Part shown: positions 453 to 5,226 of the stretch, piece after piece
Position numbering within the stretch: position 1 is the stretch's first letter
How the letters are laid out: each line of letters opens with the position of its first letter
Assembly: GCA_003660555.1 (NCBI GenBank)
Contig: QMUK01000079.1
Coordinates: 1-5,230, forward strand
DNA: 5,230 nucleotides
From: Thermococci archaeon
GTDB lineage: Archaea > Hadarchaeota > B88-G9
Direction of reading: 5' to 3'
Translations under genes and position numbers: made by a program
The notes under the pieces: model-generated
What the model saw: the letters and a program-made list of their open reading frames with translations, nothing else
Told to the model about the DNA's origin: nothing
Databases searched by the model: none

Positions 453-1163
453 ATGGGGGTCGGGAAGTTGTCCGAGGGATACGATCCAGAACTCCTGAAT
501 GCCGCATTAGAAAAACTAGAGAAAATAGACAGAATTGGTGATTCTCCCCTGTATGAGCATATGAAGAACGACATAAAAATTGTGATAAACATTCTAAGAG
601 AGAACGGGAGTGAAATAAGTGGTGGAATAACTCCAGAAGACTTGAGGAAATTCGGCGGAGTCGGGAGACATAAAGCCAGTATGATAATAGAGAAGCTGGC
701 TAGCTTGGGTTTGCTCTATGAGAGAAATGGGAAATGGTACCTCAACTTGGATCCAATAATGTCGCAAGAGGAGGCAAAGAGTGAGGAAGAGGAAGCGAGG
801 CTAAAGATGATGATGTTCTACAACAGAGTAAGGGAGAACATAGCTAGGGTGAGGAACCTAGAGGGGGACCCCGAGCAAAGGAGAGAATACGAAAGAATTG
901 CAAGGGAAGCAGAAAATGCCCTAGAGACTATAGTGAGGGAGGAAGGAGCTGGAATAGAAGCTGCTCTTACCAGACTGGACAGAGTACTAGAAAACATAAT
1001 AGATAAGGCAGCTAGAGTACATCCAAGCTTTCTAAAGAGAACTTACATAAAGATGGAGGGGCCCCACGTCCTAAACATAAATTATTTCCCTGTACACTCA
1101 AGAGGCGCTAGAAACATAACGGTTCATGTCAAAAGCGGAAAGATATGGATTTCTAACATGTAG
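453..1163 (+). CDS. Hypothetical protein with predicted winged-helix domain and long helical region
   Basis: I do not recognise this 236-residue protein. Residues 38-99 read as a winged helix-turn-helix: a helix at 38-51, a second helix at 60-67, a likely recognition helix RHKASMIIEKLASLGLL at 72-88, and a short beta wing ending YERNGKWYLNL (89-99). Residues 104-190 are highly charged and rich in Glu, Arg and Lys with few helix breakers, which suggests an extended or coiled helical region. Residues 198-236 alternate hydrophobic and polar residues, as in a small beta-rich domain (for example HVLNINYFPVHS, ITVHVKSGKIWI). There is no signal peptide or membrane segment, so it should be cytoplasmic. 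A DNA-binding regulator is plausible from the N-terminal half, but the target and partners are unknown. The ATG at 453 is favoured because a promoter sits at leaderless distance and the only closer upstream ATG (435) runs into a stop after four codons. It is divergent from the sua5-like gene. Confidence 0.85.
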   Translation: MGVGKLSEGYDPELLNAALEKLEKIDRIGDSPLYEHMKNDIKIVINILRENGSEISGGITPEDLRKFGGVGRHKASMIIEKLASLGLLYERNGKWYLNLDPIMSQEEAKSEEEEARLKMMMFYNRVRENIARVRNLEGDPEQRREYERIAREAENALETIVREEGAGIEAALTRLDRVLENIIDKAARVHPSFLKRTYIKMEGPHVLNINYFPVHSRGARNITVHVKSGKIWISNM

Positions 1164-1206: not shown

Positions 1207-1213
1207 TTTAATT
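1207..1213 (+). promoter_or_regulatory. Possible TATA box for amrS
   Basis: TTTAATT is centred about 26 bases before position 1236, where the amrS ribosome site begins, so a transcript starting there would carry a leader of roughly a dozen bases. The match is weak and no clear BRE precedes it. Readthrough from the gene at 453 is the alternative source of transcript. Confidence 0.3.
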
Positions 1214-1235
1214 GTTTTACGCCCTCTACATGAAT

Positions 1236-1241
1236 GGGAGG
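1236..1241 (+). promoter_or_regulatory. Ribosome binding site that fixes the amrS start at TTG 1248
   Basis: GGGAGG lies six bases before TTG 1248, an ideal Shine-Dalgarno spacing. Neither the in-frame TTG at 1212 nor the ATG at 1230 has a comparable site. Starting at 1248 gives MKRAMFY, matching the usual N-terminus of the family. Confidence 0.75.
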
Positions 1242-1247
1242 AACGAA

Positions 1248-2288
1248 TTGAAGAGAGCTATGTTCTACTCCTCCTCCAAGGACGGAACAGTCACTTGCAA
1301 GCTCTGCCCAAGAAACTGCACAATACCTTTAGGGAGCAGGGGAGCTTGTAGGGTTAGGGAAAACAGAGGGGGCGAACTCTATTCTCTAGTGTATGGGAAA
1401 CCAGTTAGCATGTCGCCTGATCCAATAGAGAAGAAGCCTCTGTTTCATTTTCATCCTGGATCGTGTGCCTTTTCAATAGCAACTGTGGGTTGCAATCTAT
1501 TCTGCAAACACTGTCAGAACTGGGAGATAAGTCAGGCCTCTCCAGAGGACTTCCCAGTCGAAGACGTCCCTCCGGAAGACGTTGTGAGAAAGGCCTTGCA
1601 GCTAGGATGTCACGGTATCGCTTACACCTACACGGAACCAACTGTGTTCTATGAATACGTTTACGATGTGTCGGCAATTGCCAAAAAAGAGGGGTTATAC
1701 AACGTCCTAGTTACCAATGGATACATCAGCGAGGATGCGCTCAGGGAAATCTCGAGGTTCATAGATGGATTGAACATCGATGTTAAATCCATTGAAAACA
1801 ATTTCTATTCGGAGATATGTGGGGCCAAATCCAATGATGCTGTATTGAATAGTGTCGAAGTATCCTTTGAACTTGGGATGCACGTAGAAGTGACTAACTT
1901 AATAATACCGGGAAAAAACGATTCGGTCTCCAGCATTAGAAGATTATGCAGGTGGCTGCTAGGGATTAGTGACGAAATACCAATTCACTTCACGAGGTTC
2001 TATCCCCACTACAAACTCAGAGATCTGGATCCAACCCCAGTGGAAACCTTAGAAAAAGCTAGGGAAATTGCTCTTGAAGAGGGAATGAAATTCGTTTACA
2101 TCGGGAATGTCCTTGGGCATGAATGGGAAAACACATTCTGTCCAAACTGTGGAGGAGTGGTAATAAAAAGATTTGGTTTTTCCGTTTCAGAGATAAATTT
2201 AGTTGACAAGAAGTGTAAATTCTGCGGAGAGAGAATACCGATAAGGGGTGAGATACATTCCCCGTATAAGGGCCCAGATATTTATTGA
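1248..2288 (+). CDS. amrS: AmmeMemoRadiSam system radical SAM enzyme
   Basis: This 346-residue radical SAM protein is the third member of the AmmeMemoRadiSam set, which is usually found with AMMECR1 and Memo proteins. Its reaction is not established; a role in a nucleotide or small-molecule modification has been proposed for the set. Seen directly: an N-terminal CxxCxxxC (Cys17, 20, 24) plus Cys34; the radical SAM cluster motif CNLFCKHC (Cys82, 86, 89) that holds a 4Fe-4S cluster and binds SAM; the family motif YTYTEPTVFYEY near 126-137; and a C-terminal zinc-ribbon-like tail CPNC (298, 301) and CKFC (323, 326). All these parts are usual for the family, so the protein looks full length and intact. 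It lacks a signal or membrane segment and should be cytoplasmic and oxygen sensitive. A longer in-frame reading from TTG 1212 exists but adds residues with no family match. The 3' end overlaps the next gene by 41 bp. No AMMECR1 or Memo gene lies in the window. Confidence 0.93.
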   Translation: MKRAMFYSSSKDGTVTCKLCPRNCTIPLGSRGACRVRENRGGELYSLVYGKPVSMSPDPIEKKPLFHFHPGSCAFSIATVGCNLFCKHCQNWEISQASPEDFPVEDVPPEDVVRKALQLGCHGIAYTYTEPTVFYEYVYDVSAIAKKEGLYNVLVTNGYISEDALREISRFIDGLNIDVKSIENNFYSEICGAKSNDAVLNSVEVSFELGMHVEVTNLIIPGKNDSVSSIRRLCRWLLGISDEIPIHFTRFYPHYKLRDLDPTPVETLEKAREIALEEGMKFVYIGNVLGHEWENTFCPNCGGVVIKRFGFSVSEINLVDKKCKFCGERIPIRGEIHSPYKGPDIY

Positions 2289-3048
2289 GGCTCAGAGCAA
2301 TTCGGCTAGAGCTGTAAAGAATTCCCTAGAGATAATGGCTAGGGACATTTCCAGGGAGAAGTCCTTCGAAGTTTCTGACATATCTTTGGAGGATCCCATT
2401 GAGTTGGGCGATGGTATGTACTCCTCTGCTCTTGAACTAACTGCCTCCTTTCCAGATTTGAGAACTATGGTCGAGTTCTGCTTGAAGTACGGCCCGACCC
2501 ATGTAGAAGTTTTAGAACCAATGTGGTTAGAACTAGAGAAGATTGAAATTCTGTCGACTCTAGAAATTTGCTTAAACTGGATTAGAAAAATTAGTTCCCA
2601 GAAAGGAAAGAAGTTGACCTTGTATCTCAACAATGAGTATAAAAGACACAAAGAGAGTGACGAAGTCGTCGAGGAAGTTCCACCGATATTATCTGAGGAG
2701 GAGGAATTAAGAGTTCAATTAGTTTACCCAATGTCTGAGTTCGAAAATGAGGAACAGGGAGTAAATCTGATAGAAAAAATTGTGAAAAGCCATGGAATGG
2801 TAATCACAAAGAGAAAAAGTAGCATAACAAAAGAAAAGGGGAAAAAAGTACTTTTAGTTGCAATTGAAGGAATTTTCGACGACTTTAGTAAGTTTTTCGA
2901 ATTGGTTATGAGAAGTTTGCCTATAGGGGTTAGAATTGTTAATCCAAGTAAAATAAAGCTTGGTATTGGCGATTTACAGTCTATTATAAACGAACTCTGC
3001 AATACAATACACGAGATCTTCTCTACAGATGTTGTTGAACGAAGTTAA
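2248..3048 (+). CDS. Conserved-looking hypothetical protein with two tandem copies of a small alpha/beta domain
   Basis: I cannot name this 266-residue protein. It reads as two similar units joined by a charged linker (about 116-150). Unit 1 (residues 8-115) has strand RAQIFIEA, a helix (20-34), strands near 40-47 and 58-68, a helix (70-81), strand HVEVLEP (85-91) and a last helix. Unit 2 (154-258) repeats this order with RVQLVYP, a helix (171-181), KVLLVAIEGIF, a helix (212-223), VRIVNP (228-233) and a last helix. Residues 62-112 and 204-254 align without gaps, with matched F, D, E, P, V, P, L, S, N and I. The order beta-alpha-beta-beta-alpha-beta suggests a ferredoxin-like or ACT-like fold; that is inference. 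There is no signal or membrane segment. GTG 2248 is the only start that keeps strand 1, because a TAA lies just upstream and the next ATG is about residue 30. The 41-bp overlap with amrS implies co-transcription and translational coupling. The second half is richer in A and Lys codons than its neighbours. Confidence 0.85.
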   Translation: MRYIPRIRAQIFIEAQSNSARAVKNSLEIMARDISREKSFEVSDISLEDPIELGDGMYSSALELTASFPDLRTMVEFCLKYGPTHVEVLEPMWLELEKIEILSTLEICLNWIRKISSQKGKKLTLYLNNEYKRHKESDEVVEEVPPILSEEEELRVQLVYPMSEFENEEQGVNLIEKIVKSHGMVITKRKSSITKEKGKKVLLVAIEGIFDDFSKFFELVMRSLPIGVRIVNPSKIKLGIGDLQSIINELCNTIHEIFSTDVVERS

Positions 3049-3162
3049 ACCAGGCTTAAACATGCAATCGTCGATAAAAGATTAGACGGAAGAGATCAAT
3101 CCTCAGGCATTCATCTCCAAGTATAATAAAGATATCAATCACCAAGGGATTGAGGACGGCAA

Positions 3163-3178
3163 AAAGTATATATACTTT
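3163..3178 (+). promoter_or_regulatory. Strong, perfectly symmetric TATA box of the S-layer gene
   Basis: AAAGTATATATACTTT is a perfect 16-bp palindrome containing a TATATATA core (3167-3174), preceded by an A-run (3161-3165) that serves as the BRE side for plus-strand transcription. It predicts a transcript start near 3196-3200 and a leader of about 50 bases before the TTG at 3250. Strong promoters are expected for S-layer genes, which are among the most expressed in archaea. Confidence 0.8.
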
Positions 3179-3203: not shown

Positions 3204-3222
3204 AGCGGCTTCGGGGGCCGCT
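3204..3222 (+). other. Hairpin near the 5' end of the S-layer mRNA leader
   Basis: AGCGGC pairs perfectly with GCCGCT around a seven-base loop (TTCGGGG), giving a 6-bp GC-rich stem that would lie within about ten bases of the predicted transcript start. A 5' terminal stem could protect an abundant mRNA from decay; that role is inferred. Confidence 0.55.
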
Positions 3223-3249: not shown

Positions 3250-5226
3250 TTGAGGATTAAGAAATTTGGTGCCCTCGCGACAGGTGCCCTGATGCTCGGG
3301 GCAACCTTGGCTGGAGTCCCAATATATGCTCAAAATGAGGACGTCATGATAGTCCCGGAGATACCTCCAAAGAGCTTCTTCGTAGACCCTGAGACCGGAG
3401 AAATACAAGCCAAAGTAGTAGTAGGTGAGAAGGCTGCAGCCAGTGACGTGGTAGGAGCAGCCAACATAGCTGCCAAATTAGGGAACATGGCCTTTGTGGC
3501 TAAAAAGGCTCCTGTAGAGATAAAGAAAGGGACAATAACCGGAATAAAGGCTAGATTGACATACGAACTTGAGACTGAAGACTACTGGTATGCCTACTAT
3601 GTAGAAAGCGGCCCATACGTATTGAGACACGATGCTGAGTTCGTGACTCCAGCTGGGACTACCCCACTACCAGACCCGAACAAGCTCTATGACGTATTCG
3701 ACGACAACTATTGGCCATACATAGTATCTCCTTATGAGTCTGAGTTCAAGATGGTTGCCGAGGCTAAGAACAGAGTAATAGTAAGGGATGTACTAACCTG
3801 CAGCCCATGTGACATAGCCCCGAGATACATGAGGAGGTCTACAATAGACTTCTTCGGCTCTGGATGGGATCTCTCACTACTCCAAGGAAAAGTGTACATA
3901 GGTGGGTACATAACCAGAGACGTTGGAGCAGGGCCCGAAGACTGGGAGCTCAAGATACCCAGAGCAGAATTCGAGATGAGAGGACCAACTGCTGAGGAAG
4001 TAATGGAGGGTACCGTTGATGCTGGAGGAAGCCACGGAATGACTACTGGAGAAGTAATATGTCCCACAGTCAAGGGAATAGTGCACGTATTCGACTTCAC
4101 CGATGAGAGCGAGGAGGTATATGGTGCTCTAGAGGGCGACGAAATAGACATGCTAGGCTCCTCGTACATGGTAGTGGACATAGACGAGGAGGACGAGGAA
4201 GTCTGGATCGCTAAGCTAGGATCTGAGGGATACGTCTGGCTTAAGACTGGTGGAGAGTACACCGTAAACGGATACACGATAAAACTAATAGACGTGAACC
4301 TCTTCGAGCAAAAGGCTGTGATACAGCTCTTCAAAGTAGGAGAGACCACCCCACTAGCAGAAGAAACCATAGGATACAGAGTTGATCCGAAGGATCCGAG
4401 CAAGAACGTGATGTTCATATACAAGGACGGGGAAATAGTAGTCAAGTTTGGAACTGCTCTAGTTGGTGCTGAGGGTATAGTCGAGGCCAAATTGATAATA
4501 GGACACGATGCAGTCAAATTGAGGGAGAACAGGAGCTTCCCATGGGATCCGGACTACAACACCAACTTGCTCTTCGAATACGACGAAGTGGAGGAGGAGT
4601 GGGCCCTAGGTGAAATAGTATTCTACAATAACGTAGTCTTCGATGACACCACTGAGGTATTCGGTCCAAATGAGGCTTGGATGCTCTACTACGAATACGA
4701 CGAAATAACCAAAGAGAGAGCCCACTACGAGAAAGGTAGAGTGGTCTTCCACGTAGAGAGAACTGAGACAGTTGAAAAGGCTGCAGGAGAGAGATTCGAC
4801 CTACCGTTCGAAGGACAACCTTCGGCTAAGATAACCGTTGAAGACGTAGAAGTGGCTGGAATGACCATAGTGATAGGCGGTGAGGAAGTACAAGTAGGTC
4901 AAGAGATGGAATTCGCTACTAGGATCCCAATTCCAGAGGACTTGGCCATATTAGACTCAGACGTAGAGGCCAACCCCGACTACTACAACTACAACTTGAT
5001 ACTAGTCGGAGGACCTGCAGTAAACAATGAAGTGAAGAAACTCCAAGACCAAGGAAAGCTAACCACGGACATAGCTGGTCTGAGAGCAGACCAAGGAGTA
5101 ATAGAGTGGGTAGAGGACCCATGGGGCACTGAGAAGGATGCTCTAGTGGTCGCTGGAGGAGGAAGGGAAGGGACTGCCAAGGCAGTCAAGAAGCTCCTAG
5201 AGGAACTAGATGCAATGATGGAGTGA
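3250..5226 (+). CDS. S-layer protein, methanococcal (MJ) type, secreted
   Basis: This 658-residue precursor should form the paracrystalline surface layer outside the membrane. Residues 1-27 are a Sec signal peptide: basic MRIKK, a hydrophobic core rich in Ala, Gly and Leu, and a likely cut after Ala27 (PIYA). Residues about 40-90 match the N-terminal domain of methanococcal S-layer proteins (VVVGEKAAASDVVGAANIAAKLG at 56-78). The acidic middle contains a unit near 295-375 with GDEIDMLGSSYMVVDIDEE and YTVNGYTIKLIDV, resembling beta-rich S-layer units. Residues 580-655 match the C-terminal domain: NLILVGGPAVNNEV at 582-595 and DALVVAGGGREGTAKAV near 635-651. The protein ends shortly after with no membrane anchor. 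It has only three cysteines (184, 187, 271), of which CSPC could form a disulfide, and one N-glycosylation sequon (Asn427-Arg-Ser). The many Asp/Glu clusters suggest calcium binding, by inference. Length is within the range of the family. The gene has its own strong promoter and is probably monocistronic; the stop lies four bases from the window end, so no terminator is visible. Confidence 0.93.
   Translation: MRIKKFGALATGALMLGATLAGVPIYAQNEDVMIVPEIPPKSFFVDPETGEIQAKVVVGEKAAASDVVGAANIAAKLGNMAFVAKKAPVEIKKGTITGIKARLTYELETEDYWYAYYVESGPYVLRHDAEFVTPAGTTPLPDPNKLYDVFDDNYWPYIVSPYESEFKMVAEAKNRVIVRDVLTCSPCDIAPRYMRRSTIDFFGSGWDLSLLQGKVYIGGYITRDVGAGPEDWELKIPRAEFEMRGPTAEEVMEGTVDAGGSHGMTTGEVICPTVKGIVHVFDFTDESEEVYGALEGDEIDMLGSSYMVVDIDEEDEEVWIAKLGSEGYVWLKTGGEYTVNGYTIKLIDVNLFEQKAVIQLFKVGETTPLAEETIGYRVDPKDPSKNVMFIYKDGEIVVKFGTALVGAEGIVEAKLIIGHDAVKLRENRSFPWDPDYNTNLLFEYDEVEEEWALGEIVFYNNVVFDDTTEVFGPNEAWMLYYEYDEITKERAHYEKGRVVFHVERTETVEKAAGERFDLPFEGQPSAKITVEDVEVAGMTIVIGGEEVQVGQEMEFATRIPIPEDLAILDSDVEANPDYYNYNLILVGGPAVNNEVKKLQDQGKLTTDIAGLRADQGVIEWVEDPWGTEKDALVVAGGGREGTAKAVKKLLEELDAMME

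Follow-up and report, generated by a model that had tools for sequence, protein, structure and literature searches.

We report that the 266-aa protein encoded midway along an archaeal contig of 5,230 nucleotides (hereafter the window, which is the entire contig C93 of a 1.3 Mb genome) belongs to a family whose presence across archaea follows that of an S-layer gene, and not that of amrS, the gene that it overlaps. Neither Pfam nor NCBIfam has a model for this family, and we found no description of the family in the literature searched; we use the label DOM, coined here. By analogy with known regulators, DOM probably helps to control the S-layer gene. On balance, and with a little better than even confidence, we favour the reading that this unnamed, archaea-wide ACT/RAM-like family has its main job tied to the S-layer, where it would act as a regulator together with a winged-helix partner.

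The DOM gene occupies positions 2248 to 3048 of the forward strand, has a GTG start and is recognized by its relatives and its predicted structure. On re-checking, both this reading frame and its 41-bp overlap with amrS are as originally predicted, and, since the stop-to-stop frame begins at 2245, one codon ahead of the GTG, an earlier start is impossible. Upstream, amrS (1212 to 2288, forward strand) encodes the AmmeMemoRadiSam radical SAM enzyme (TIGR04337, E 2.3e-102, 342 bits; cut-off 220). Downstream, after a gap of 201 bp, a gene with a TTG start encodes a 658-aa S-layer protein (3250 to 5226, forward strand; PF05124 E 3.8e-29, PF05123 E 2e-9, TIGR01564 E 5e-27). The gap contains a TATA-box-like element, AAAAAGTATATATAC (3161 to 3175, forward strand), that lines up with AAAAGTATATATACC, a conserved element of the Thermococcaceae regions between DOM and the S-layer gene, and is the probable S-layer promoter. 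The order amrS, DOM, promoter-bearing gap and S-layer gene on one strand is like that of genome family f9, which from gene order and content we take to be the Thermococcaceae. The place in this system of an unnamed 236-aa protein encoded upstream of amrS (453 to 1163, forward strand) is uncertain: its similarity to winged-helix/MarR proteins is weak and below cut-off (PF12802, E 0.018), and no relatives were found in the loci fetched. A further S-layer-like protein (1012 aa) is encoded in the same genome on contig C8 (L198:1283-4321), about 2.4 kb upstream of AMMECR1.

DOM proteins take three forms: a single domain, a tandem pair, or one such domain joined to a winged helix. The first relatives came from a phmmer search of loci fetched by amrS and included two-domain proteins (L066, L067), single-domain proteins of about 145 aa (L002, L003, L093) and proteins in which a TrmB-like winged helix (PF01978) accompanies one DOM domain (L011, L014, L017, L053). 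A profile search then found DOM in 210 of 394 archaeal genomes, nearly always as one match per genome. In the phylum of the window, where the source genome is the sole representative of its class among the 28 genomes compared, a phylum-wide search found no relative in the 27 others; two weak matches were not credible and were set aside, one covering 44 residues (L063) and the other carrying an internal stop (L064). By gene order, MJ0538 may be the Methanocaldococcus member of the family; a literature search on it returned no papers.

Judged from sequence profiles and a predicted model, the window protein is an internal duplication of one small domain, as originally predicted. The argument given at the time was that an ungapped alignment pairs residues 62-112 with 204-254 at an offset of 142, with 10 identities in 51. 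That count is exact; as evidence, it is by itself not above chance, because shuffled versions of the protein reach at least 10 of 51 identities on some diagonal in 198 of 200 trials. The best 51-residue window by BLOSUM62 does lie on the offset-142 diagonal, with a score of 39 (shuffled maxima average 17, SD 7); with gaps allowed, local alignment of one half to the other gives only p=0.04. Stronger evidence comes from the relatives. An HMM built solely from single-domain and winged-helix-fused relatives, with all two-domain proteins left out, matches both halves of the window protein (Z=10,000): an N-terminal ferredoxin/ACT-like domain at approximately residues 6-118 (2263 to 2601, forward strand; E 5.4e-22) and a C-terminal one at approximately residues 150-262 (2695 to 3033, forward strand; E 4.2e-10). 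The same HMM matches both halves in 36 of 36 two-domain relatives, and an HMM-HMM comparison of the N-half alignment with the C-half alignment, the profile-profile check proposed with the original prediction, returns 97.9% probability (E 5e-13). In the two-domain relatives, the halves are more clearly alike than in the window protein; for L067, none of 1000 shuffles did as well. A tree of 114 domains places all N halves together and, apart from them, all C halves; these two sets and the fused domains require one change each, as expected from a single old duplication and a single fusion. The window halves are long branches in this tree and their exact placement is unsure. DOM is thus, as far as sequence comparison reveals, a widespread archaeal family whose tandem form arose from one ancient duplication.

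Structure prediction agrees with the duplication. In the AlphaFold2 (AF2) model of the full-length window protein (pLDDT 80), the order of elements is identical in the two halves: E7-17, H20-36, E41-47, E58-68, H71-81, E85-90, E93-97 and H98-118 in the first, and E154-162, H168-181, E185-196, E199-210, H213-223, E227-232, E235-239 and H240-265 in the second. The single-domain protein L002, modelled from 8 sequences (pLDDT 86), is predicted as H-E-H-E-E-H-E-H plus one short extra strand, and each domain, single or in tandem, contains the beta-alpha-beta-beta-alpha-beta order. Profiles and model together support the proposal of a fused pseudo-dimer of a ferredoxin/ACT-like domain, and the halves, which might have proved to fold differently, are predicted alike. 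VIA-align placed ribosomal protein S6, ACT, RAM (Lrp/AsnC) and NikR domains level at Z 8-10, all ferredoxin-like and among them Lrp/AsnC protein 2ia0 (Z 9.3), GcvR 1u8s (Z 8.7), the RelA ACT domain and NikR; the ferredoxin-like fold is very common, and such scores give a fold class and not a specific relative. Foldseek found no match at E<=0.001 for either AF2 model, and the Pfam and NCBIfam models for ACT and RAM (AsnC) matched neither the window protein at E<=1 nor seven relatives at E<=5. Single-sequence searches of Pfam, NCBIfam and the PDB returned sub-threshold chance matches only (DUF6671, alcohol dehydrogenases), and a PDB profile search returned nucleoside diphosphate kinase alone, at E 0.17. 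A supposed likeness to WCX, the C-terminal domain of WYL proteins, gained no confirmation from any search and was dropped.

The closest working analogies to DOM, offered as analogies and not as family memberships, are Lrp/AsnC and GcvR. Lrp/AsnC proteins, with a winged helix and a RAM domain, resemble the fused form of DOM in joining a ferredoxin-like regulatory domain to a winged helix; on residues 1-90, 2ia0 (Z 9.3) aligns over 77 residues at rmsd 2.8, a result tied with unrelated ferredoxin-like folds, and 8q90 reaches Z 8.1. DOM matches no Lrp/AsnC-type sequence model in Pfam or NCBIfam, and its single and tandem forms carry no DNA-binding domain. The glycine cleavage system regulator GcvR resembles the tandem form, with two ferredoxin-like domains per chain and no DNA-binding domain, and 1u8s aligns over 149 residues spanning both halves; at an rmsd of 14.3, the mutual arrangement of the domains appears to differ in DOM, and we saw neither sequence similarity nor a link to glycine. 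A metal sensor of the NikR type is less likely, since by eye the DOM consensus has no conserved His/Cys cluster.

The main link of DOM is to the S-layer gene, which in the window lies 201 bp downstream and which the original prediction had not considered as the partner. We read the neighbourhoods of 60 loci (L127-L186), chosen for spread over families and architectures and not for context, by neighbour clustering and profile searches. An S-layer gene lies within 5 kb of DOM in 29 of these, in all 29 downstream and on the same strand, an arrangement seen in many deep archaeal lineages. The usual one-strand order runs from amrS, where present, through DOM and, in some loci, a membrane winged-helix gene to the S-layer gene. 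In the Thermococcaceae, the PF05124 gene adjoins DOM in 19/19 genomes with listed PF05124 hits. Two genomes of that family, G339 (L129) and G152, keep amrS and DOM and have no PF05124 hit; at L129 there is no S-layer-like reading frame downstream of DOM. The association extends to co-occurrence: over the 394 genomes, some affected by incompleteness where genes are scored absent, DOM and PF05124 (the MJ-type S-layer protein) occur together in 191, DOM alone in 19, the S-layer gene alone in 46 and neither in 138 (odds ratio 30, Fisher 6e-44). Relatedness was handled by grouping genomes into taxonomic families, the lists being compiled by hand, and the corresponding counts are 85, 7, 10 and 32 (odds ratio 39, p 1e-15). 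The 27 other genomes of the window's phylum have neither DOM nor PF05124.

DOM might instead be a housekeeping protein unrelated to the S-layer, its linkage a relic of conserved old gene order. Its single copy and broad distribution would suit such a protein, as would the Methanocaldococcus/Methanococcus-like genomes and several other lineages in which DOM is not beside an S-layer gene; in methanogens the contexts include genes for lysyl-tRNA synthetase and 2-oxoacid oxidoreductase. We regard this as quite unlikely, given that the conserved order spans lineages with differing other neighbours and three domain architectures, and that DOM presence follows S-layer presence at the level of families. 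An uncharacterised protein near S-layer-like genes has been reported before, in the DPANN 'dark matter' cluster cls.004306 (NEQ255) (PMC6393860). That cluster is described as secreted (PMC6393860), whereas by eye DOM has no signal sequence, and by description the two are set apart.

The original prediction held that the overlap with amrS makes a functional link to AmmeMemoRadiSam (AmrS, AMMECR1, Memo) worth testing. Proximity to amrS is indeed recurrent: homologs, which might never have been found near it, lie beside it in distant archaea (Thermococcaceae, Aenigmatarchaeota-like and Diapherotrites-like genomes), and in about 20 of the 60 loci chosen by DOM, amrS precedes it on the same strand. 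Together with the 41-bp overlap in the window, this would be expected if DOM served AmrS as a substrate or accessory subunit of AmmeMemoRadiSam, the S-layer link being secondary. We consider this very unlikely. Positive co-occurrence with amrS, as expected of a member of the system, was not found among the 394 genomes, where the association is negative (149 with both, 61 with DOM only, 166 with amrS only, 18 with neither; phi -0.24): DOM is absent from many genomes with amrS and present in many without it, no amrS being seen in 61 of 210 DOM-positive genomes, some of them incomplete. Within the phylum of the window, each of the 27 other genomes carries amrS and lacks DOM, and in the source genome AMMECR1 and Memo both lie on other contigs. 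It is the S-layer gene, not amrS, that DOM presence follows, and the context suggested by the overlap is not borne out. Separately, two of the amrS genes encode proteins of 777-802 aa with an intein at the radical-SAM cysteine motif (L182:3075-5483 and L162:7622-9955); in L182, where it was searched, the intein matches PF14890 and PF14528 and has a LAGLIDADG domain.

A winged helix is often supplied to DOM either in cis, by fusion, or by the next gene. Of 22 single-domain loci, 19 have a gene for a membrane winged-helix protein adjoining DOM; no fused or tandem locus has one. By eye, the product of this gene has a signal sequence, a predicted outside domain, a transmembrane helix and a cytoplasmic winged helix, and these neighbours match PF24034. 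We propose that DOM acts as a cytoplasmic sensory or dimerisation module, working with a winged-helix partner that would be fused to it, encoded next door on the membrane protein or encoded elsewhere, and that the pair may set S-layer expression through the promoter that follows the DOM gene. In the window, whose DOM protein is of the tandem form, both halves of the would-be dimer would sit in one chain, with the DNA-binding partner elsewhere. The candidate in the source genome is a relative of the membrane winged-helix protein on contig C2 (10851-11762; E 1e-41, almost full length); because genomes carry several such copies, its assignment to DOM is only a guess. More tentatively, the parts may form a surface-homeostasis circuit, in which the membrane winged-helix protein senses the state of the coat and, with DOM, adjusts S-layer transcription, winged helix and DOM having become fused in some lineages and DOM duplicated into a pseudo-dimer in others.

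Should DOM indeed control the S-layer gene (slp), one of the most abundant proteins of these archaea would gain a candidate regulator. S-layer protein genes rank among the most highly expressed in these organisms, TK0895 being among the top transcripts (PMC4247193), and a review of archaeal S-layers mentions regulation once only, for Sulfolobales (PMC5744192). In Thermococcus kodakarensis, TK0894 is called a 'hypothetical protein' (PMC9014305). From locus numbering, which makes it adjoin the S-layer gene TK0895, and from the conserved order, we infer that TK0894 is the DOM gene. A broadly conserved, uncharacterised protein of regulator-like architecture thus becomes a testable candidate in a tractable species.

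The region between DOM and slp offers possible targets. In the Thermococcaceae it is strongly conserved, with the TATA element AAAAGTATATATACC preceded by two similar 20-bp blocks at a spacing of about 53 bp, TATTATCGGCAAAAGGCGAA and TTTTTACGGCAATGAGCGAG, as well as by a third partial block at the BRE (L100-L114). The composite pattern occurs once per genome, at slp only, in 5 of 10 genomes searched, and a reversed control pattern gave no hit. The blocks are possible sites for an S-layer transcription factor, and could be bound by any factor; the window retains the TATA element without the two upstream blocks.

A regulator could also act after transcription. DOM would then bind either the leader of the S-layer mRNA or the S-layer protein as it is made, and would regulate translation or serve as a cytoplasmic chaperone, keeping synthesis in step with export. 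Gene linkage and co-occurrence with the S-layer would fit equally, the RNA-binding ribosomal protein S6 is among the closest folds, and a GC hairpin can fold ahead of the ribosome-binding site in the S-layer leader of the window and in those of several Thermococcaceae. We nevertheless think such a role unlikely, as the winged helix of the fused form points to DNA and the leader hairpins vary in sequence.

Of the leaders themselves, that of the window, probably the S-layer 5' leader, includes a GC-rich inverted repeat, AGCGGC...GCCGCT (3204-3222), and several related S-layer leaders have a GGGC...GCCC hairpin ahead of the ribosome-binding site. Where the fused form is encoded, the stretch separating its gene from the S-layer gene contains a well conserved leader, GGTCTAGCTAT...GTAGCCATA...GGCTT, which follows the TATA box and is possibly a structured RNA (L011:7385-7597, L014:7702-7897, L017:4126-4358 and L053:8235-8588).
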